Both the position numbers and the translations under genes were made by a program. A stretch of 64,000 bases of DNA from Myxococcaceae bacterium JPH2. Lineage in GTDB: Bacteria; Myxococcota; Myxococcia; Myxococcales; Myxococcaceae. Numbering within the stretch: position 1 is the stretch's first letter; every line of letters begins with the position of its first letter. Positions 2,196 through 14,021 of this stretch are shown piece by piece. Under the pieces are notes generated by a model, which worked only from the letters and a program-made list of their open reading frames with translations, did not search any database and had not been told where the DNA came from. The stretch lies in the NCBI GenBank assembly GCA_016458225.1, contig JAEMGR010000030.1:62001-126000 (forward strand), written 5' to 3'.

Positions 2196-2217
2196 GTGAC
2201 ATTCGTGTGACGCTCGT
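2196..2217. promoter_or_regulatory. Putative Pho box upstream of pstC
   Basis: Two direct repeats, GTGACATTCGT and GTGACGCTCGT, lie end to end, giving GTGAC half-sites at 2196 and 2207, exactly 11 bp apart. PhoB sites are known to be direct repeats of TGTCA-like half-sites at 11-bp spacing; read on the minus strand these are GTCAC repeats. The site lies 19 bases before the pstC start. PhoB binding is inferred. Confidence 0.6.
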
Positions 2218-3041
2218 TACTTCACGGGGAAGTAGCCGACCTTGGTGACGACGGCCTGGCCCTCGGGCGAGAGCGTGAAGTCGATGAACGCCTTCGCCTC
2301 GCCGGACGGCTTGTTGCGCAGGTAGAAGAAGAGGTTGCGCGAGAGCGGGTACTTGCCGCTCTTGACGTTGTCCGCCGTCGGGGCGAACTCCTCGCTGCCC
2401 TTCTTGATCTTCAGCTCCTTGACGCCCTTGGCGTACGCGGCGCCGCCGTAGCCGATGCCGTTCTTCTCCTTGGCCACCGCGTTGACGACCGCGGCGGTGC
2501 CCGGCAGCGTCTGGGCGTTGGAGGCGTAGTCATCGCCGCCCAGCACGTTGTCCTTCACGAAGGAGTAGGTGCCCGAGGAGTTCTCGCGGGAGTAGAGGAC
2601 GATGGTGGCCGCGGGGCCGCCCACGTCCTTCCAGTTCGTGGTGTCACCCAGGTAGATGCCCTTGAGCTGATCCACGGTGAGGGACGTCACGGGGTTGGTG
2701 TCGTTCACGTAGAACGTGACGCCGTCCTTGGCGACGGGAATCTCCACGCCGGTGGTGCTGAAGCGGGCGCGCAGCTTCTCCTGCTCCGCCTCCTTCATCT
2801 CGCGGCTGGACATGGCGATGTCCGTGGTGCCGTTCTGGAGCGCGGAGAGGCCCGTGCCGGAGCCGCCGCCGGTCACCTGGACCTTGGTGCCCGGGTTCTT
2901 CTTCATGAACTCCTCGGCCCAGCGCTGGACGAGGATGACCATGGTGTCCGAGCCCTTCACGGTGATTGTGCCGGCCTGGGCGGCCAGCGGGGTGGCCAGG
3001 GCGAGCAGGGCGGTGAGGGACGAGAGCAGAGTCTTCTTCAT
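2217..3041 (-). CDS. pstS: Periplasmic phosphate-binding protein PstS
   Basis: Phosphate-binding protein that delivers Pi to PstCA, 274 residues. The ATG at 3041 is chosen because it follows an AGGAGA ribosome site and opens a clear signal peptide (MKKTLLSSLTALLALATPLA) with likely cleavage after AQA. The longer reading frame upstream has an Arg/Pro-rich, non-family N-terminus. Phosphate-contact stretches visible are GSDTM, GGGSGTG with TTDIAMSSRE, and SRENSSGTY. It lies 34 bases downstream of the porin gene, so the two are probably co-transcribed. Confidence 0.95.
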   Translation of the reverse strand: MKKTLLSSLTALLALATPLAAQAGTITVKGSDTMVILVQRWAEEFMKKNPGTKVQVTGGGSGTGLSALQNGTTDIAMSSREMKEAEQEKLRARFSTTGVEIPVAKDGVTFYVNDTNPVTSLTVDQLKGIYLGDTTNWKDVGGPAATIVLYSRENSSGTYSFVKDNVLGGDDYASNAQTLPGTAAVVNAVAKEKNGIGYGGAAYAKGVKELKIKKGSEEFAPTADNVKSGKYPLSRNLFFYLRNKPSGEAKAFIDFTLSPEGQAVVTKVGYFPVK

Positions 3042-3075
3042 GGGAATTGTCTCCTGGGGAAAGGTAGGTCGTGGC

Positions 3076-4284
3076 CTAGAAGCGCGCCTGCATCTGCAGG
3101 GTGAAGAGATTGTCCTTCGGGTCCTTGGCGTCATCGACCTTGGCGGTCATGGGGATCTCGTAGACCGCCGAAACCTTCAGGTTCTCACCAAAGTAGTGCT
3201 GCACGAGCAGGCCCACCGTGTTGACGGTGTTGTTGGCGCCCGGCACGCCGTTGGCGGCCACGTTGGCCGCGCCGTTGCGAGGATCGAAGCTGTCGAAGCG
3301 CACCGCCACCGCGTCGCTCAGGCCCAGGTTCTGCACCAGCAAGAGCCAGTAGCCGTGGGCCGCGGCGTTCAGGTTGGTGGCGTTGTTGGCACCGCCAAAC
3401 GTCTTGCCGGCGATGAACTCGCCCTTGAGGGCGGTGCCACCGATGGGCAGCACATCCAGGTAGACCTGGAGGTCCGCGCCAATGCGGGTGCGCTTGTAGG
3501 CGGTGCGGAACTCGTCATTGGCCAGCTTGCCGAGCGAGTCGCCGTACCAGCCGGACACGCCGCCGGAGATCCACTTGAGGTCGAACCCGACGCGGCCGAT
3601 GACGTCCTTGTCCTTGTCGTTGTCCTGGACGGTGCCGGAGTCCGTGCCGTTGCCGTCGAACACGCCGATGTTGAGGCGCAGGAAGTCATAGCGGCCGTTG
3701 AGCTTCACGCCGCGGTCGCGCTCGCTGGGCAGGAAGGCGCGGATGACGCGGCTGCGCTCGGGGAACTCGCGGTCGCCGGAGGACTGGGGCGCCTCGTAGC
3801 CGAACGGCCACTTGGTCTGGCCCGCGGTGAGCGACCACGTCTGCTTGGTGCCGGGGATGAACAGGGTGGCCTCGGCGTCCTTCAGGACCACGCCCGCGGG
3901 AGACGCGTCGATCTGCAGCATCGCCTGGGCCAGGTCCGTGGTGTACGTGGCCTTGAGGCGGCCCCGGCGCACGGTGAAGCGGCTGAAGCCGCCATTGCCG
4001 TAGTCATCGAGCGACTCCTGGTACTGGTAGCGCGACTGGATGTAGCCGGAGATCTTCAGCTTCTTCAGGGCGGAGAGGTCGGACTGCGCCGTCGTGTTCT
4101 GCTCTTCCAGGGCGGCGACCTTGCCTTCGTCCATCGCGATCCGCTCCTCGATGGTCGGCTCGGCGGCGGCAGGGGCGGCCTCGGTGCTCTGCGCTTCGGA
4201 GGGGGCGGGCGTCTGGGGCTCCGCGGACTGCGCCAGGGCCGCGCTGGTGGTCAGGGTGAAGAGGGCAACAAGGAGGTTACGCAT
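3076..4284 (-). CDS. Phosphate-selective porin O/P-like outer membrane protein
   Basis: Predicted outer-membrane porin of the OprP/OprO (Porin_O_P) type, 402 residues. It has a signal peptide (MRNLLVALFTLTTSAALAQS), an Ala/Pro/Glu-rich linker, a short coiled coil around IEERIAMDEGKVAALEEQ, then a beta-barrel region starting KISGYIQSRYQYQ and ending in the aromatic LQMQARF expected of barrel proteins. Its place upstream of pstS and downstream of a Pho-box-like site suggests it brings phosphate across the outer membrane in starvation. Substrate specificity is inferred. Confidence 0.88.
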   Translation of the reverse strand: MRNLLVALFTLTTSAALAQSAEPQTPAPSEAQSTEAAPAAAEPTIEERIAMDEGKVAALEEQNTTAQSDLSALKKLKISGYIQSRYQYQESLDDYGNGGFSRFTVRRGRLKATYTTDLAQAMLQIDASPAGVVLKDAEATLFIPGTKQTWSLTAGQTKWPFGYEAPQSSGDREFPERSRVIRAFLPSERDRGVKLNGRYDFLRLNIGVFDGNGTDSGTVQDNDKDKDVIGRVGFDLKWISGGVSGWYGDSLGKLANDEFRTAYKRTRIGADLQVYLDVLPIGGTALKGEFIAGKTFGGANNATNLNAAAHGYWLLLVQNLGLSDAVAVRFDSFDPRNGAANVAANGVPGANNTVNTVGLLVQHYFGENLKVSAVYEIPMTAKVDDAKDPKDNLFTLQMQARF

Positions 4285-4357
4285 GGGTTTGAAGGGCTCC
4301 TGAGAAGACCGCGGACTGTCTTCTACGGAGCACTTGTGGCCATTTGACGGCCCCCGC

Positions 4358-4379
4358 GTGACAACGTGGCAACGAGTTT
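4358..4379. promoter_or_regulatory. Putative Pho box upstream of the porin-pstSCAB genes
   Basis: Half-sites GTGAC (4358-4362) and GCAAC (4369-4373) are spaced exactly 11 bp. The flanks (CCGCGTGACA..., ...GCAACNAGTT) match the site before phoB almost base for base. It sits about 74 bases before the porin start and ends at the phoB stop codon, so it is placed to drive porin-pstS-pstC-pstA-pstB. PhoB binding is inferred. Confidence 0.6.
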
Positions 4380-5068
4380 CAGGAGGCCGACGGATCCACG
4401 ATTCGGTAGCCCACGCCTCGGACCGTCTCCAGGAGCGCGCGCGCCGTGCCCAGCTTGTCGCGCAGGCGCATCACGTGCGTGTCGATGGTGCGCGTCTCCA
4501 GCGAGCTGGACAGCCCCCAGACCTCCTCCAGGAGCAGCTCGCGCGTCTGCACGCGACCCAGCCGCGTCATGAGGTGCTCCAGCAGGCGGAACTCCAGCGC
4601 GGTGAGCGCCACCTCGCGCTCGTCGACGTAGAAGCGATGGGACGCCACATCCAGGCGCAAGGGCCCGAGCGTGAGCGGCTGCTGGCCGTCCTTGGGCGAG
4701 CCGCCGCGGCGGACGATGGCCTTGAGGCGCAAGACCAGCTCGCGCACGGAGAAGGGCTTGACCACGTAGTCGTCCGCGCCCACCTCGAAGCCCCGGATGC
4801 GGTCGGCCTCTTCGCTCTTGGCGGTGAGCATGACGATGAGCACGTCACGCGAGTGCGCGTTCGCCCGGAGCTGGCGGCAGACGTCCACGCCGGACATGTC
4901 CGGCAGCATGAGGTCCAGCAGAACGACATCAGGGGGCTGCTCCCGTGCCGAGGTCAGGGCTGCTTCTCCAGTGCCCGCCACCCGGGTGGTGAAGCCAGAG
5001 GCGCGCAGGTTGAAATCGATCAGCTCGGCGAGGTCGCGCTCGTCGTCAACGATGAGGACATGGGACAT
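4379..5068 (-). CDS. phoB: PhoB-like response regulator (OmpR family)
   Basis: DNA-binding response regulator, 229 residues. The receiver domain (1-120) has acidic residues D8/D9, phosphoacceptor D52 in LLDLMLPD, and the KPF switch lysine. The C-terminal winged helix (about 130-229) has the OmpR-type TALEFRLLEHL and RVGYRIV ends. The start at 5068 (MSHVLIVDDE) is chosen over a longer frame from 5158 because the extra 30 residues are not receiver-like and would read through a Pho-box-like site at 5107-5133. No kinase is adjacent; the nearest PhoR-like kinase is at 17-18.3 kb. Expected to activate the pst/porin genes. Confidence 0.9.
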   Translation of the reverse strand: MSHVLIVDDERDLAELIDFNLRASGFTTRVAGTGEAALTSAREQPPDVVLLDLMLPDMSGVDVCRQLRANAHSRDVLIVMLTAKSEEADRIRGFEVGADDYVVKPFSVRELVLRLKAIVRRGGSPKDGQQPLTLGPLRLDVASHRFYVDEREVALTALEFRLLEHLMTRLGRVQTRELLLEEVWGLSSSLETRTIDTHVMRLRDKLGTARALLETVRGVGYRIVDPSAS

Positions 5069-5106
5069 GGCGGCCTCGCACTCTGAGCGCGTCGCTTTGC
5101 TGCCGC

Positions 5107-5133
5107 GTGACACGCCGGCAACAAGTTCGTGAC
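5107..5133. promoter_or_regulatory. Putative three-half-site Pho box upstream of phoB
   Basis: GTGAC (5107), GCAAC (5118) and GTGAC (5129) lie at exact 11-bp steps, 39 bases before the phoB start. The first two half-sites and their flanks match the site at 4358. This suggests autoregulation of phoB. It is the most complete of the three sites in the locus. Confidence 0.6.
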
Positions 5134-5182
5134 TGCGCTCCCCGCCCGCGTCACGCAAGGGCGCGGGCGGGGGAGCGGTCCC

Positions 5183-6130
5183 TTAGCTCCGCGGCAGGGG
5201 CTTGGCCGCGCGCTCCATCGCGTTGGGCTCGTGGCCGGCGTGCTCGCGTCCCGCGTGCTCAGCGCCCGCGGGGTTCAGCAGCATGGCGGCATCCACCGCG
5301 CGCAGCTCGCCGTTGAAGCCGCTGAACGCGATGGTGCGATGCGGCCGGATGAGGGACAGCTCGTACAGCTCCTGGTACGCCACCAGGACCTCGGGCTCGT
5401 GGCTCAGCGCGGAGAGCGCACGGCCCACCGCGGACGGGTACTGGCCCTTGGCTTCGGCGACCATGCCCGCGATGTGCGCCTCGGTCTCCGCCTCGAGGAG
5501 CGCCACGCGCTGTCGGCCCTCCTCTTCGATGTCCGCCTTGGCGCGCTCCAGTCGCGCGGAGATGGTCTCCAGCACTTGATTGGACACCTCGGGCAGCAGG
5601 CTGACGTTGCGGATGAGGACGGCGTCCACCTCCAGGCCCCAGCGCGCCGTCTCGGAGGCGACGTCGCGCTGCAAGAGGTCTCCCAGCTCGTTGCGGTCGC
5701 AGAGGATCTGCTGGAACTCGCGGTTGCCGAGGATGGAGATGGCCGAGTGGGTGACGAGGTTGTTGAGCGAGCGATCCCAGTCCGCCACGTCGAACAGGGC
5801 CTTGGCCGGGTCCGCGATGCGGAACTCCAGCCACAGGTCCACGATGACGGTGGTGCCGCGCGCGTCGTTGACGTGGATGTTGTTGAACTCGCGGAAGTCT
5901 CGTCGCAGCGAGACGGGCACCGTCTTCACCCAGGGCAGGGCGCGGGCGAAGAACCAGTGCCAGCCGGGGCGGGTGATGACGCGCTCCAGCCTGCCGAAGC
6001 GCGTGATGAGCACGGCCTCCTCGTCCTCCACCTGGAGGGCGAGCCGCTGGAGGATGCCGAAGAGGAAGGGAAGGGCCGCGAGTCCGAGGACGAGGCCGCC
6101 GAGGAAGTGCAGGGTGTCAGGGGAGTTCAT
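5183..6130 (-). CDS. SPFH/band-7 membrane protein (HflC-like)
   Basis: Membrane-anchored SPFH/prohibitin-family protein, 315 residues. An N-terminal hydrophobic anchor (about 8-28) is followed by a band-7 domain (LALQVEDEEAVLITRFGRLERVI) and an alpha-helical Ala/Glu-rich stretch (RLERAKADIEEEGRQRVALLEAE) typical of oligomerising stomatin-like proteins. Its ATG overlaps the stop of the upstream SPFH gene by 4 bases, so the two likely form a hetero-oligomer like HflK/HflC. No FtsH-type protease is nearby, so the partner and role are open. The short C-terminal tail is His/Glu-rich (EHAGREHAGHE). Confidence 0.82.
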   Translation of the reverse strand: MNSPDTLHFLGGLVLGLAALPFLFGILQRLALQVEDEEAVLITRFGRLERVITRPGWHWFFARALPWVKTVPVSLRRDFREFNNIHVNDARGTTVIVDLWLEFRIADPAKALFDVADWDRSLNNLVTHSAISILGNREFQQILCDRNELGDLLQRDVASETARWGLEVDAVLIRNVSLLPEVSNQVLETISARLERAKADIEEEGRQRVALLEAETEAHIAGMVAEAKGQYPSAVGRALSALSHEPEVLVAYQELYELSLIRPHRTIAFSGFNGELRAVDAAMLLNPAGAEHAGREHAGHEPNAMERAAKPLPRS

Positions 6131-6996
6131 CGCGAGTCCTTCCGGTAGATGGTGCGGGCATCGGACGTCACCTCGGAGCGGCGGCGGGCGACGTAGTGGT
6201 GCAGGGTGTTCTTCTGGGCCAGCTCGCGCAGGTAGCGGCCCAGGGTGCCAATCTCCGTCTCCACGGCCTTGGAGTGCGCGCGCGCGATGGCGAGCCCGCG
6301 CTCGGCGGCGAGCACGCGCTGCTGCGTCTCGGCCTCGGCGCGCGCGTGGGTGGCGTCCGCCTCGGAGCGCGCCTGGATGACGGCGTTGAGCGCGTCGGCC
6401 AGTTCGTCCGGGGGCAGCACGTCCGTGAGGTCCACCGCGTTGAAGCCCACGCCGTAGCGCCGGCCGATGCGCGCGCGGCAGAACTCCTCGATGCGCGCGT
6501 TGAGCAGGCGCCGCTCGCGGCGGATGAGCGCGTACGAGCCCGGCTCCTCCGCTCCGCTGGGGGCCTTGTCCGGCGCCTCGCGGAAGTTGGCGATCTCATT
6601 GCGCAACAGGCAGGTGAACAGGCCGGTGATGTGCTCGATGGGCGAGCGCAGGCCGAAGAGGAAGTGGCTCAGCTCCCGCTCCACCGGCACGTAGCGGAGG
6701 ATGGAGTCCAGCCGGAGGATCGTGCCGTCCGCCGCCATGGCGGTGCGGCCCCCCTCCTCGCCGGACAGGTCCAGGTTCTGCTCCATCATCGGGACGTGGA
6801 TGACCTTCTCCCAGGGCCGCTTCTGGTGCAGCCCGGGGCCGTAGGTGCGCAGCCGCTGCGAGTCATCCTCGCGATGCACGGCGCGACCGAAGGACGTGAG
6901 CACCGCGAGCTGGCCCTGCTCTACTTGGAAGAAGCAACGGCTCAGGATGAAGGCGCCGTAGAGGGCGACGCCGCCCAGGATTCCGAACAAGAACAT
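6127..6996 (-). CDS. SPFH/band-7 membrane protein (HflK-like)
   Basis: First of a coupled pair of SPFH-domain proteins, 289 residues from the ATG at 6996. A membrane anchor (MFLFGILGGVALYGAFILS) leads into a band-7 domain (FFQVEQGQLAVLTSFGRAV), then a helical region with ARAEAETQQRVLAAERG. The start at 6996 has a GGAGG upstream and clears the end of the SulP gene at 7031; a longer frame from 7089 would overlap that gene and add a non-membrane leader. Probably assembles with its neighbour into a membrane ring or microdomain scaffold; function unknown. Confidence 0.8.
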   Translation of the reverse strand: MFLFGILGGVALYGAFILSRCFFQVEQGQLAVLTSFGRAVHREDDSQRLRTYGPGLHQKRPWEKVIHVPMMEQNLDLSGEEGGRTAMAADGTILRLDSILRYVPVERELSHFLFGLRSPIEHITGLFTCLLRNEIANFREAPDKAPSGAEEPGSYALIRRERRLLNARIEEFCRARIGRRYGVGFNAVDLTDVLPPDELADALNAVIQARSEADATHARAEAETQQRVLAAERGLAIARAHSKAVETEIGTLGRYLRELAQKNTLHHYVARRRSEVTSDARTIYRKDSR

Positions 6997-7030
6997 CACG
7001 AGAGAAACCTCCGAAAGGGATGGAAGGGAG

Positions 7031-9055
7031 TCAGAAGCGGCCCGGGCCTCGCGGCCTGCGGGAGTTCGCTCCGGGACTGCTCGGGACAAGGGCCTCGCCG
7101 TGCGGTCCGTGCCCGGTGGGCACGTGCACGAGGGCGCCGGACTTGACGTACTTGTGGTAGGCGGACGCGAGCCCGCGGTTCACGTCGACCACGTCCTCGT
7201 TGAACTCGAGGTGCGACGCCGAGACGAGCGGCAGCTTCTCCGCCTTCTCCGCGGTGTCGACGATCATCCCGTGCGGCACGAAGCGACCGTCGGGGACTTC
7301 CACGCCCACCACCACGGCGCCGATGCCGATGTAGCAGTGCGAGCCGACGATGGAGTCGTGCACCACCGCCTTGAAGCCCACGAAGGTGTCGTCCCCGATG
7401 AAGCACGGGCCATGCACCAGCGCGTCGTGGGCCATGGACACGTTGCGGCCCACGTAGACGGCCCACTCCTCGCCGCCCACGCGCACGCGCTTGTCCTTGA
7501 GGGCGTGGATGACCACGCCGTCCTGCACGTTGGAGTTGTCTCCGATGAAGAACGGCGAGCCCTCGTCCGCGCGCACGGAGCTGCCCGCGGCGATGTGCAC
7601 GTGCTCGCCCATGGTGACGCGCCCGATGACGGCGGCCTGCTCATGGACGAAGGCCGATGCGGCCCGGTGCGCCCGCGCGCGGATGTTGCGCAGCCACGCG
7701 TGGTCCTGCGGCGGAGCCTCGTGGCCGTGGGGATGGCGGGCCTCGGCGCGGTCCTTGTGCAGCACCGCGCGGATGCCGGTGGCCTTGCGCGCCTGCGTCT
7801 CGCGCGCCTGCGCCCGCGACTTGCGGGTGAGCAGGAGGTGCACGCCGTGGATGGCCATGCCCGCCGCGAGCCCCGCCACCAGGTGCCCCGTGACGGTGCC
7901 GGCCGCGGTGACGATGAAGGCCACCGCGCCCAGCTTCTCCGTGTGCCACAGGTGCCGGAGCGTCTTCAGCTCGATGAGGCGCATGCCCACCACGCAGAGC
8001 AGTCCGGCCAGCGCCGCCAGGGGGATGATGGAGAGCTGCTGGGACAGGTAGAGCACCGCGAGCAGCAGCGCGGCGGCGTGCACCAGCGCGGACAGCCGCG
8101 TCTTCGCTCCGCTCTGGACGTTGACGCCCGAGCGCACGATGACGCCCGTGACGGGCATGCCGCCAAAGAGCGCCGAGCCCGTGTTGGCCACGCCCTGGCC
8201 AATCAGCTCCAGGTCCAGGTGGGGCGGCGGGGCCGTGGGCGCCATGCGCTCCACCGCGCGCGCCGCGAGCAGGGACTCGGCGGCCGCGAGCAGCGCCAGG
8301 GGCAGGACCTTCCACGCGAGGGAGAGCCACTGGCTGCCCTCCATCACGGGCAGCGCGGGGAAGGGGAGCGACGAGGGCACATCGCCCACCCGCGCGATGC
8401 CCCAGCCGAGGTACTCGGCCAGCGCGGTGATGAGCGCGATGCCCACCAGCGCCGCGGGGAAGCGCTTGAACTGCTGCGTGGAGACGACCAGGAACGCGAC
8501 GAACAGGCCGCAGAGCACGGCCGTGTACGAGACCTCGCGCAGCCACTCCGGGCGGTCCAGCATCTGCGCCAGCTGCGCCACGGTGTAGTCGAAGCCGAAG
8601 AGCTCCGGGAGCTGGCCATCCAGGAGCTTGATGCCGACGCCGGTGGTGAAGCCCACGAGCACCGACTCCGGCACCACGCGGATGAGCTTGCCGCCGCGCG
8701 CCAGGCCCATGGTGATTTGCAGCCCACCGATGAGCAGCGCCGCCGCCGCCGCGCCCGCCACGCCGAACTCCGCGACGATGGCCAGCACCATGACGTTGAG
8801 CGCCGCGGCCGGTCCCGTCACCTGGAGGGGCGCGCCTCCGAAGATGGCCGCGAGCCCCCCTCCGATGGCCCCCGCGATGAGGCCCGCGGCCGGAGGCAGT
8901 CCGCTCGCCACCGCGAGGGCGAGGTTGAGCGGCAGCGCCACCGCCGCCACGGTGACGCCCGCCAGGAGATCCGCGGGCAGGTGGCGGCCGGTGAAGACCT
9001 CGCCCCAGGCGCGAGTCCAGGCCTGGAACAGCTCGCGCGAGGGGTGCCGGGGCAT
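7031..9055 (-). CDS. SulP-family anion permease fused to gamma-type carbonic anhydrase
   Basis: A 674-residue fusion, probably a bicarbonate transporter. Residues about 15-430 form a SulP permease with the family entry motif LPADLLAGVTVAAVALPLNLA and about ten or more hydrophobic segments. The usual C-terminal STAS domain is not seen. Residues about 470-640 form a left-handed beta-helix of the gamma carbonic anhydrase/CcmM type, with three possible zinc ligands: H517 (NVQDGVVIH), H543 and H548 (MAHDALVH), the last two five apart as in known gamma enzymes. The ATG at 9055 follows GGAG at good spacing; upstream ATGs lack one. SulP fusions to beta carbonic anhydrases are known; a gamma fusion is less usual. 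Confidence 0.88.
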   Translation of the reverse strand: MPRHPSRELFQAWTRAWGEVFTGRHLPADLLAGVTVAAVALPLNLALAVASGLPPAAGLIAGAIGGGLAAIFGGAPLQVTGPAAALNVMVLAIVAEFGVAGAAAAALLIGGLQITMGLARGGKLIRVVPESVLVGFTTGVGIKLLDGQLPELFGFDYTVAQLAQMLDRPEWLREVSYTAVLCGLFVAFLVVSTQQFKRFPAALVGIALITALAEYLGWGIARVGDVPSSLPFPALPVMEGSQWLSLAWKVLPLALLAAAESLLAARAVERMAPTAPPPHLDLELIGQGVANTGSALFGGMPVTGVIVRSGVNVQSGAKTRLSALVHAAALLLAVLYLSQQLSIIPLAALAGLLCVVGMRLIELKTLRHLWHTEKLGAVAFIVTAAGTVTGHLVAGLAAGMAIHGVHLLLTRKSRAQARETQARKATGIRAVLHKDRAEARHPHGHEAPPQDHAWLRNIRARAHRAASAFVHEQAAVIGRVTMGEHVHIAAGSSVRADEGSPFFIGDNSNVQDGVVIHALKDKRVRVGGEEWAVYVGRNVSMAHDALVHGPCFIGDDTFVGFKAVVHDSIVGSHCYIGIGAVVVGVEVPDGRFVPHGMIVDTAEKAEKLPLVSASHLEFNEDVVDVNRGLASAYHKYVKSGALVHVPTGHGPHGEALVPSSPGANSRRPRGPGRF

Positions 9056-10598: not shown

Positions 10599-11039
10599 CT
10601 ACTCCACGCCACCCACGAAGAAGGACACGAGCAGCAGCGCGAGCACTCCCGCGGTGATGGCGACGAAGACGCGATCCCTCTGGAGGCGGAACACGCCCAG
10701 GGACAGCGCCACCCGCAGCACGGGCACGGACATCATCACCAGCAGGCCCGCCATGACGAAGGACTGCCCGCGCACCGCGAGCACGCCTTGAAAGACATCC
10801 GTGAGGCGATGCAGGCCGTGGTCCGGCGCGGTGAGTCGCTCCAGCGCCGTGGGAGACGAGAAGTAGTCGGGGTGGTGGAAGAACGTCAGCCCCATGCCCA
10901 CGGCGACCAGCGACAGGCTCAGCATGACGCCGCCGCGAAGCAGCATGCTGATGAGCAGCTCCGGCGTGAGCGCGGGCGCCTGGGGAATGGGGGCCGCGAC
11001 GGGAGCGCTCGGCCGCGGCTCGGGAGAGGACAGGCTCAT
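10599..11039 (-). CDS. DUF1634 membrane protein
   Basis: Small integral membrane protein, 146 residues. A Pro/Ala-rich N-terminus precedes three hydrophobic segments (around SMLLRGGVMLSLSLVAVGMG, FVMAGLLVMMSVPVLRVALS and VFVAITAGVLALLLVSFFVG). The pattern and the PxLRVAL and RDRVFV stretches fit DUF1634. Its ATG overlaps the TSUP transporter stop by 4 bases. DUF1634 genes commonly sit beside TauE/SafE-type transporters, so it is probably an accessory subunit of the neighbour. Confidence 0.75.
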   Translation of the reverse strand: MSLSSPEPRPSAPVAAPIPQAPALTPELLISMLLRGGVMLSLSLVAVGMGLTFFHHPDYFSSPTALERLTAPDHGLHRLTDVFQGVLAVRGQSFVMAGLLVMMSVPVLRVALSLGVFRLQRDRVFVAITAGVLALLLVSFFVGGVE

Positions 11040-11884
11040 CCGTGCACGCCCTTGCGCAGCATCTCGAAGGCCACCCACAGCAGCACGACGACGAACAGGG
11101 CCCGCAGCCAGCCGCTGCTCAGCTTCGTCATGAAGCGCGAGCCCGCGAACGCGCCCAGCGTGACGCCCACGCACACCGGACCGGCGATGAACGGGTCGAT
11201 GTCTCCGCGCGCGAAGTAGATGCCCGCGCTCGCCGCCGCCGTCACGCCAATCATGAAGTTGCTGGTGGCCGAGGACACCTTGATGGGCAGTCCCATGGCC
11301 AGGTCCATGGCGGGCACCTTCAGGGCGCCCGACCCGATGCCCAGCAGGCCACTCACCGTCCCAGCCACGTACATGAGCCCGAGCCCGATGAGCGGCCGGC
11401 GCACGCGATAGGCCACCTCGCTCCCGGAGGACTCATCGAAGTAGCTGCTGTGCAGGCCCAGGCGATCCGCCAGCGCGTCGTTCGACTCCACCGCGCGCGA
11501 GGGTTGCTCCCGCAGCTTGCGCAGCATCGCGAGCGCCGAGTACGCCATCACCGCGCCGAAGAGGAGGTAGAGCCCGCGGCCTCCCACCACGCCCGCCAGC
11601 AGCGCCCCGGTGAGCGCGCCGGCCGTGGTGGCCAGCTCCAGGAACATCGCCACGCGCATGTTCGCCAGGCCATCGCGCACATACGCCGCGGCGGCGCCAC
11701 TGGACGTGGCGATGACGGAGACGATGGACGCGCCCACCGCGTAGCGGATGTCCACCTTCAGCACGAGGGTGAGGATGGGGATGAGGATGAGCCCGCCGCC
11801 GAGTCCCAGCAGCGAGCCGAGCAGGCCCGCCACGACGGAGACGACCATCACGAGCGCGACGAAGTTGAAGGGGGTGGCGAGCAC
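11036..11884 (-). CDS. TSUP family (TauE/SafE) membrane transporter
   Basis: Integral membrane protein of 282 residues with the TauE/SafE hallmark near the N-terminus (GLLGSLLGLGGGLILIPILT) and its internal repeat (GTVSGLLGIGSGALKVPAMD). The family exports or imports sulfur-containing or organic anions; the substrate cannot be told from sequence. A GTG at 11884 is taken as start; an ATG 12 codons later is possible. It is coupled to the DUF1634 gene. Confidence 0.87.
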   Translation of the reverse strand: MLATPFNFVALVMVVSVVAGLLGSLLGLGGGLILIPILTLVLKVDIRYAVGASIVSVIATSSGAAAAYVRDGLANMRVAMFLELATTAGALTGALLAGVVGGRGLYLLFGAVMAYSALAMLRKLREQPSRAVESNDALADRLGLHSSYFDESSGSEVAYRVRRPLIGLGLMYVAGTVSGLLGIGSGALKVPAMDLAMGLPIKVSSATSNFMIGVTAAASAGIYFARGDIDPFIAGPVCVGVTLGAFAGSRFMTKLSSGWLRALFVVVLLWVAFEMLRKGVHG

Positions 11885-11976
11885 GCGACGCGCATCATCC
11901 TCTCCCGCGCCCCGCGCACAACCCCTTTGGCAGCCCCTGGCTCGGCTGGCCGGCTGCTCACGGGCCCGGAAGGACG

Positions 11977-12222
11977 TTACGGCGGGGGCTTTGGCTCGGG
12001 ATGCTCTGGAGCGGGTGGGGTCTCCGGCACCTGGGGCAGGGGCCAGCCTTGGAACATGGGCCAGGCGCGGTACGCGTCATAGGGGTGCTCCGGCGCGGTG
12101 GGGGCGGGCTCGGGGCGCTCCGGACGCATCGGGTGGGGTGGCGAGCGCAGCAGCACGTAGGAGAGCACGGAGCACAGCAGGGCCAGGGCGGCGATGCTCC
12201 ACGCGCGGGCCCGGTTGTCCAT
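11977..12222 (-). CDS. Small proline-rich single-pass membrane protein
   Basis: An 81-residue protein with one N-terminal membrane helix (WSIAALALLCSVLSYVLL, about 8-25) followed by a Pro/Glu-rich tail ending PEPKPPP. The ATG at 12222 follows GAGGAGA at good spacing, and the start is 23 bases after the ClC gene stop, so it is probably co-transcribed. No family recognised; the role could be structural or accessory to the channel. Confidence 0.65.
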   Translation of the reverse strand: MDNRARAWSIAALALLCSVLSYVLLRSPPHPMRPERPEPAPTAPEHPYDAYRAWPMFQGWPLPQVPETPPAPEHPEPKPPP

Positions 12223-12245
12223 GCGGTGAGTCTCCTCGTGAGGGG

Positions 12246-14021
12246 CTAGAAGCGCCCGTGTTTCAACACCTCGGTCTTGGAGATGGTGCCCAGCAGGTGC
12301 CGCGCGTCATCCACCACGGGCAGTCGCTCCAGGGGCGTGCGAGCGAAGCGGGTGGCCACCTCCGCGAGTGACAGGCCCGGCGTGATGGGCTGCACGCGTC
12401 GGTCCATGACGTCCGCGGCCACCGTGGCCTGGAGGAGCGAGTGGTCCGGCAGGTGCCCCTTCAGCTCGTCCAGGACGATGACACCCAGCAGGCGCCCGCT
12501 CTCGTCCGTGACGTAGAGGTCCATGCCCGGGGGCTGCTCCAAGAGGAGCACCACCACCTCGTCGAAGGGCGCAGAGGGCGGCACGCGCAAGGTGACTGGC
12601 GTGAGCATGCCGCGCACACCCTCCTCGCGAAGCCAGTAGGGGACCGAGTCGGGCACGCGCACGTCGCGGCGGTTGAGCACCGACGTATAGAGGGACTCGG
12701 GCTCGAGCCATCGGCTCACCGCCGTGGAGACCACGGCGCCCAGCATGAGGGGCAGGATGAGGCCATAGTCACCGGTCATCTCGAAGATCATCAGCACCGC
12801 GGACACGGACGCGTGCGTGGTGCCCGCCAGCACCGCGCCCATGCCCAGCAGGGCGTACGCGCCGCTCGGTGCGCCACCGGGCGCGAAGTGCCCCACGACG
12901 ACACCGAACGCGCCACCCAGCAGCGCGCCGAAGAAGAGCGATGGCGTGAAGAGCCCGCCCGGAACACCCGCGCCCGCGCACAGCGACGTGACGGCGAGCT
13001 TGGCCAAGGGCAGGCCCAACAACAGCAGCAAGGGGAGTCTCCCATGCAGCGCCATGTTCACCGGGTCGTATCCATTGCCGAGCAGATAGGGCCAGCCCAT
13101 CGCGGCCAGGCCCACCACCGTCATGGCCGCGAGCGGGAGGAATGGAGCCAGCCACGTCGGCGCGCGGTCGAGCAGATCCGACAGCGCGTTGATGCCACGC
13201 ACGTAGCCCGCGGACGCGGCGCCCAGCAACACGCCGAGCAGGAGCGTGAGGAGCAGCTCGCGCGGATGGGTGAGGACGTAGTGCGGGATGACGTAGCTGG
13301 GGTGATCCGCGATGAGCGTGCGGGACACCAGTGTTGCCACGACGCACGACACGACGATGGGGCCGAACAGCTCCAGCGCGAAGCTGCCGAGCAGGACCTC
13401 GAGCCCGAAGAGTGCCGCGCCGATGGGCACGTTGTACGCGGAGGCAATGCCCGCCGCGGCGCCGCAGGCCACGAGCAACCGGGCTTGGCCGGGGCCCAAT
13501 CGCAGACGCTGCGCGAGCGCGGATCCGCTGGCCGCGCCCGTCTGCAACAGGGCACCTTCGCGTCCCAGCGGCGCGCCGAGTCCCACGACGATGATGGACA
13601 CGAGCCCGCGGAACAACGCGCGAGGCAGGGGCAGACGTCCGGACTTCACCCAGATGGACTCGATGATGCCCGCGGTGCCGTGGCCGCGCAGCGGCTGGCC
13701 CACGAGCAGGGACACCAGCGACACGAGCGCGCCGCCGAGGACGGGAACGAGGAAGCGGCGCCAGGTAGGAGAGGCCATCGCGCCCGCGATGAACTCGTCG
13801 CCGTTGACGTGCCAGAACAGGTTCTGGGTGACGCGCAGCACCTGGAGCAGGGCCACGGCGCCCAGTCCGGAGATGAGGCCCACGCCCACCACCATGGCCC
13901 AGAAGCGCCGCTCCTGATTCGTCAGGCCCTTGAGCAATCCACCGAGCTGGGGCGACAAGGGCCGGCGTGCCCGCCCGCCTGGGAGGGAATCACCTCGCGC
14001 TGATTCAGGGGTGGTGTCCAC
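12246..14021 (-). CDS. ClC-family chloride channel/transporter with CBS domains
   Basis: ClC anion channel or exchanger of 591 residues. The membrane core (about 40-440) shows three filter regions: GHGTAG, GREGA with the gating glutamate, and GLFTPS. The ion-contact tyrosine is probably in ESLYTSV. A CBS pair fills the C-terminus (about 455-591). At the position of the ClC-ec1 proton glutamate E203, hand alignment of YNVPIGAALFGLEVLL puts Val, with the Glu one residue earlier. That resembles channel-type members, but this is an eye alignment. The start is a GTG at 14021. The following small membrane protein may share its transcript. Confidence 0.92.
   Translation of the reverse strand: MDTTPESARGDSLPGGRARRPLSPQLGGLLKGLTNQERRFWAMVVGVGLISGLGAVALLQVLRVTQNLFWHVNGDEFIAGAMASPTWRRFLVPVLGGALVSLVSLLVGQPLRGHGTAGIIESIWVKSGRLPLPRALFRGLVSIIVVGLGAPLGREGALLQTGAASGSALAQRLRLGPGQARLLVACGAAAGIASAYNVPIGAALFGLEVLLGSFALELFGPIVVSCVVATLVSRTLIADHPSYVIPHYVLTHPRELLLTLLLGVLLGAASAGYVRGINALSDLLDRAPTWLAPFLPLAAMTVVGLAAMGWPYLLGNGYDPVNMALHGRLPLLLLLGLPLAKLAVTSLCAGAGVPGGLFTPSLFFGALLGGAFGVVVGHFAPGGAPSGAYALLGMGAVLAGTTHASVSAVLMIFEMTGDYGLILPLMLGAVVSTAVSRWLEPESLYTSVLNRRDVRVPDSVPYWLREEGVRGMLTPVTLRVPPSAPFDEVVVLLLEQPPGMDLYVTDESGRLLGVIVLDELKGHLPDHSLLQATVAADVMDRRVQPITPGLSLAEVATRFARTPLERLPVVDDARHLLGTISKTEVLKHGRF

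Follow-up and report, generated by a model that had tools for sequence, protein, structure and literature searches.

Can a SulP anion transporter and a gamma-class carbonic anhydrase (gamma-CA) form one protein, and what would such a protein do? The question is raised by a gene in the window, the 64,000-nucleotide stretch of contig JAEMGR010000030.1 (positions 62,001 to 126,000) of Myxococcaceae bacterium JPH2. The gene occupies 7031..9055 of the minus strand; translation from the ATG at 9055, with GGAG 5 bases 5′ of it, to the stop codon at 7033-7031 gives 674 residues in a frame that is open throughout, without an internal stop. A preliminary description of this DNA, which named no strand, had read here one frame joining a SulP membrane domain without a visible STAS domain to a gamma-CA, and both statements are borne out. 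The SulP/SLC26 membrane domain (residues 10-413; 7817..9028, minus strand) is recognized by Pfam and by a fold match to BicA, with Sulfate_transp spanning residues 28-383 at profile positions 3-380 of 380 (E 1.4e-65). In SulP/SLC26 anion transporters a C-terminal STAS domain is usual, not universal; Pfam found no STAS match in the window's fusion protein, and none was found in the fusion proteins of loci L086, L088 and L089.

The rest of the protein, also on the minus strand, consists of a basic linker delimited by model and alignment (residues 414-455; 7691..7816), the left-handed beta-helix of the gamma-CA with its C-terminal helix, identified by profile, tree and fold match (residues 456-638; 7142..7690), and a tail that is disordered according to the structure model and the alignment (about residues 639-674; 7034..7141). 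The model (mean pLDDT 83) contains two well-predicted domains separated by a linker that is poorly ordered and of low confidence at residues 427-449, and its disordered tail covers the 33 residues 642-674. Its membrane domain is closest to BicA (Z 47.5, rmsd 2.5, 368 residues, 31% identity) and its beta-helix superimposes on Cam (Z 31, rmsd 1.7 Å, 187 residues, 45% identity; Foldseek was also run). Trp454 of the linker is invariant in the 41 aligned fusion proteins. The last residue of the tail is Phe in 41/41 proteins, the window's included; the remaining tail sequence is variable, and 36 of the 40 relatives have a Trp among their final 30 residues.

Could the frame be an artefact, either of a sequencing frame error that joined adjacent genes or of an acyltransferase domain misread as a gamma-CA? 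We found no point that supports this. The whole fusion is present in 17 of 195 genomes of the phylum (the window's own included; 57-100% identity, no internal stop), the 16 others having 57-97% identity to the window protein. A scan of 84,980 GTDB species genomes with two gamma-CA motifs, which misses divergent gamma-CAs, returned 43 further fusion loci (41 full length, 2 cut by contig ends), some of them in the same assemblies as the 17 genomes. Because the same open fusion recurs in 16 other genomes and in the 43 scan loci, a frame error or an assembly join is excluded; the preliminary description had named such a join as one danger to its reading and had suggested looking for the fusion across SulP proteins. 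Taken with the clear assignment of the C-terminal domain to Cam/CcmM given below, the 41 full-length frames among these loci leave the artefact a negligible probability. The hosts are Myxococcaceae, Archangiaceae, Polyangiaceae, Sandaracinaceae, Labilitrichaceae and two Bdellovibrionota, and include an isolate available for tests, Citreicoccus inhibens, whose fusion is 97% identical to the window's. Viral contigs contained no relative and plasmids no match covering 80% of the query, outcomes on which a mobile or viral origin was rejected.

The identity of the C-terminal domain was addressed with profiles, as the preliminary description had proposed. Residues ~447-636 match CcmM (NCBIfam E 3e-56; PDB 3kwc, E 8e-49) and Cam (PDB 1qrf, E 7.5e-45), and the scores of PaaY and CaiE are far lower in both NCBIfam and PDB, which rules out that the beta-helix is an acyltransferase. 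By maximum likelihood, the gamma-CA domains of all the fusions come together in a single clade (98/96) with cyanobacterial CcmM next to it and a Bacillota Cam-like sequence outside; two domains of this clade that seem to stand alone (L093 and L094) belong to fusions truncated where their contigs end. The domain thus groups with Cam and CcmM and not with a non-CA acyltransferase clade, and on sequence grounds we assign it firmly to the metal-binding Cam/CcmM clade of gamma-CAs. Within Myxococcota this type of gamma-CA is confined to the fusion (17 of 193 genomes), and elsewhere in the phylum only remote CaiE-like proteins occur.

The active site is intact. The three histidines proposed earlier as zinc ligands, His517 (7505..7507), His543 (7427..7429) and His548 (7412..7414; all minus strand), align with the Cam/CcmM ligands, in Cam numbering His81, His117 and His122, and are conserved in 41/41 proteins. 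R495, D497, E498, N509, Q511, D512 and N626 are likewise invariant in the 41 aligned proteins, and R495, D497, N509 and Q511 are the equivalents of Cam Arg59, Asp61, Asn73 and Gln75. The N-terminal gamma-CA domain of CcmM and Methanosarcina thermophila Cam share 44-46% identity with the fusion domain, together with the zinc ligands and second-shell residues. They differ from it in setting: CcmM, with its RbcS-like repeats, is a soluble scaffold of carboxysomes and Cam a free enzyme, whereas the gamma-CA of the fusion is tethered to a transporter. No RbcS-like repeats follow it; only the disordered tail does. The position of the Cam proton-shuttle residue Glu84 is occupied by Lys520 in 41/41 fusion proteins, which counts against the bicarbonate metabolon proposed below; CcmM, too, has no Cam Glu84 loop.

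These residues also bear on the idea that the domain is a sensor or scaffold in place of STAS, which binds HCO3−/CO2 or trimerises the transporter, gates the passage of an anion, be it bicarbonate or not, and catalyses little. The domain does occupy the STAS position, its closest relatives are scaffold proteins (CcmM), of which some cyanobacteria have inactive versions, and the Cam proton-shuttle Glu is absent. A mere scaffold, however, would be expected to lose the zinc ligands and second-shell residues in some lineages, yet all of these are invariant in 41/41 proteins, and active CcmM lacks the Cam acidic loop as well. We therefore regard a sensor or scaffold with little catalysis as quite improbable.

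SulP proteins joined to carbonic anhydrases are not without precedent. A passage of PMC6458275, citing Felce and Saier 2004, describes SulP-beta-CA fusions and can-sulP operons as predicted bicarbonate transporters, in which SulP is likewise joined to or placed beside a carbonic anhydrase. The enzyme there is of the beta class and that of the window's fusion of the gamma class, and the two folds are unrelated. Such arrangements are abundant in Myxococcota: at least 54 SulP genes in at least 53 genomes have a beta-CA gene on their own strand no more than 1.5 kb away, the beta-CA domain being found 100-465 bases past the part of SulP that matched (at least 53 genomes), and this neighbourhood is common in genera that have no gamma-CA fusion. 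Three-domain SulP-STAS-beta-CA fusions were also seen in other Myxococcota (L050:2981-5458 and L051:2939-5221); these retain STAS, in contrast to the window's fusion. A further frame of 1056 residues (L049:2438-5605) has SulP-STAS in its second half, and its first ~500 residues, which have no Pfam match, may reflect an over-long frame. The fusion is therefore a variant of the known SulP-carbonic anhydrase theme, not a new kind of system, and the earlier suggestion of a gamma-class solution to the coupling achieved by SulP-beta-CA fusions fits well with these fusions and pairs in the same phylum. If the assignment is true, an enzyme class unrelated to the beta-CAs has also been coupled to a bicarbonate transporter by gene fusion. 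In the open-access literature we found no precedent for SulP with a gamma-CA, or for an SPFH protein with a carbonic anhydrase. The most unusual parts of the system, absent from the preliminary description, are an SPFH gene pair and a transporter swap.

The pair lies directly downstream of the fusion on the minus strand. SPFH_a (SPFH/Band-7; 6127..6999) probably starts at GTG 6999 or ATG 6996 behind GGAGG, its open frame extending to TTG 7089, and SPFH_b (SPFH/Band-7; 5183..6130) shares 4 bases with the 3′ end of SPFH_a; the Pfam Band_7 matches of the pair have E values of 3e-25 and 8e-16. SPFH_a stands directly 3′ of the fusion on the same strand in all 41 loci whose contigs reach it, and SPFH_b comes next, again on the same strand, in 39 of 39, with the 4-base overlap kept in 32 of the 39. 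This order holds also in Bdellovibrionota and in the most divergent Myxococcota loci. The fusion, SPFH_a and SPFH_b thus form a conserved three-gene operon, as read directly from the gene order; scans for sigma-70 promoters and terminators gave nothing useful. Among 193 Myxococcota, SPFH_a homologues at E <= 1e-40 are found in exactly the 17 fusion genomes and in 0 of the 176 others (Fisher p 1e-24), the next matches having E values of 1e-24 and 1e-22. Since the pair is confined to fusion-bearing genomes, it appears to be dedicated to one client, and, judged against the available literature, this is a new and strict association; in the papers found, no strict SPFH pair is reported with SulP-beta-CA systems. 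The constant position of these genes 3′ of the fusion suggests a membrane-bound machine that handles bicarbonate.

Both proteins resemble HflC/HflK, stomatin and QmcA, and hflK-hflC are likewise two consecutive genes. As modelled (pLDDT 88), SPFH_a consists of a single TM helix at the N terminus, the SPFH fold and a C-terminal helix of 65 residues, and it matches HflC, prohibitin and stomatin complexes; this is the full layout of cage-forming subunits, and SPFH_a shares its fold and layout with HflK/HflC, QmcA and stomatin. As to the positive charges around the SPFH TM helix, the E. coli HflC control is likewise more charged after its own. In NCBIfam, SPFH_b scores 54.8 bits against an HflK/HflC equivalog cut-off of 159.4 and SPFH_a 25.2 bits against 134.4, and scores so far below the cut-offs count against the metabolon. 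They also differ from HflK/HflC, QmcA and stomatin in being dedicated to the SulP-gamma-CA gene and not to an FtsH or NfeD partner. The pair might instead be a quality-control adaptor of the HflK/C-FtsH type, which stabilises or degrades the fusion protein and has no microdomain or compartment role. That the best family resemblance, weak as it is, is to HflK/HflC would agree with this; we nevertheless consider it unlikely, because the pair is confined to fusion-bearing genomes with one dedicated client, and because we identified no FtsH gene next to the fusion (at other loci only homologues of the window's neighbours were sought). A complex of stomatin with aquaporin 1 has been solved, as the title of entry 9zd2 indicates, so that binding of a membrane transport protein by an SPFH protein has a precedent. 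If the association holds, an SPFH complex can be devoted to a transporter/carbonic anhydrase pair, and for bacterial SPFH complexes, whose client is usually unknown, the gene order here names one.

What does the SulP half carry? A swap that occurred in nature provides a clue. In three metagenome-assembled genomes of three lineages (L088-L090) the SulP half is just 28-30% identical to that of the window, while the gamma-CA half is 66-70% and the SPFH genes are 42-65% identical. The same SulP halves have 55-58% identity to unfused SulPs of four other genomes, compared with 27-31% to the SulP of the main fusion. As these loci differ in SulP but keep the gamma-CA and the SPFH genes, the module has acquired two distinct SulP partners. 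A SulP tree sets the two kinds apart with high support, and the topology test was borderline (p-AU 0.064); a single SulP origin of the whole fusion was thus rejected mainly on the identities of 55-58% versus 27-31%, the topology test alone being borderline. In two of the four genomes (L195 and L196) the relatives of the replacement SulP lie directly 3′ of a beta-CA gene. Since one of the two SulPs comes from this beta-CA-associated group, bicarbonate is favoured as the cargo, and the swap is the best indirect evidence for it. Independently, it argues that the gamma-CA/SPFH module can function with more than one SulP. At L195 the beta-CA is in turn preceded by a short gene for an SPFH-like protein of 181 aa, so that three genes, the last encoding a SulP without STAS, stand in a row (L195:4685-7350). 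The genome concerned (G068) also carries the SulP-gamma-CA cassette, so that there SPFH adjoins a beta-CA/SulP pair too.

The closest solved membrane domain to the window's SulP is that of BicA, the cyanobacterial SulP bicarbonate transporter. BicA is Na+-coupled and carries a STAS domain, and its Na+ site we take to be D258/T262. The fusion differs from it in having neither these residues nor STAS, and in the attached gamma-CA. At the corresponding positions it has E260 in 41/41 proteins, a residue that matches SLC26Dg, and A, S or C at 264. Na+ symport is therefore unlikely, and transport of HCO3− would more probably be coupled to H+ or to anion exchange. In the SLC26 topology the part after the last TM helix is cytoplasmic, and in the fusion 12 K/R fall within residues 414-470, just after that helix; the topology and this basic linker together place the gamma-CA on the cytoplasmic side.

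Homology and genome context lead us to propose that the SulP domain, the tethered cytoplasmic gamma-CA and an SPFH cage or microdomain probably make up a bicarbonate-transport metabolon, a reading in which we have moderate confidence. The SulP domain would move HCO3− across the inner membrane, and the gamma-CA, in the usual place of STAS, would equilibrate HCO3− and CO2 at the mouth of the transporter. SPFH_a and SPFH_b would form a hetero-oligomeric ring or cage like that of HflK/HflC, which may cluster the fusion protein in a membrane microdomain or surround it there. Because all 41 proteins end in Phe while the rest of the tail varies, the tail is a candidate docking peptide. The likely service, in heterotrophs, would be to supply or balance HCO3− for carboxylases and to control pH. 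A CO2-concentrating mechanism linked to RuBisCO was rejected, as RuBisCO was not found in the window's genome. Several points count against the metabolon in addition to those above. The SulP family includes sulfate and dicarboxylate transport, and the substrate is not readable from sequence; SulP proteins usually assemble as dimers, gamma-CAs as trimers, so that two symmetries meet within one fusion. The window's genome also encodes one stand-alone beta-CA, so that the gamma-CA is not its unique carbonic anhydrase; the query used detects one SulP in this genome. A stronger version, in which SPFH_a/b would close an inner-membrane cage around SulP-gamma-CA, with the Phe tail docking, to give a CO2/HCO3− chamber unrelated to carboxysomes where incoming bicarbonate is converted in a confined space, appears to us doubtful. 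The fusion could also serve as a compact part for engineering bicarbonate supply.

The same anatomy would fit net flux in the outward direction, with the gamma-CA hydrating respiratory CO2 at the membrane and the SulP exporting HCO3− in exchange for another anion, as a means of CO2 disposal or pH control. The hosts are heterotrophs with large genomes, the window's genome yielded no RuBisCO, and the window has a CLC gene (12246-14021), though in other genera this gene does not keep its place near the fusion. Well-studied bacterial SulP/carbonic anhydrase systems, however, are discussed as uptake systems, even if PMC6458275 also allows a pH role, and the direction of flux is not readable from sequence; export of this kind seems to us rather unlikely.

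The other neighbours of the three-gene cassette in the window (PstS, a Porin_O_P protein, a response regulator, a SixA-like protein, TauE/DUF1634 and CLC) accompany the fusion within the genus but are not kept next to it beyond. Immediately downstream of the cassette and on its strand, genes for a PstS-like binding protein, a Porin_O_P porin and a response regulator (2217-5158) look like a phosphate uptake system. Upstream, on the minus strand, adjacent DUF1634 and TauE/SafE genes are followed by that for a CLC chloride channel/transporter with a CBS domain (10599-14021 in all, CLC at 12246-14021), so that several anion transport genes lie close together.
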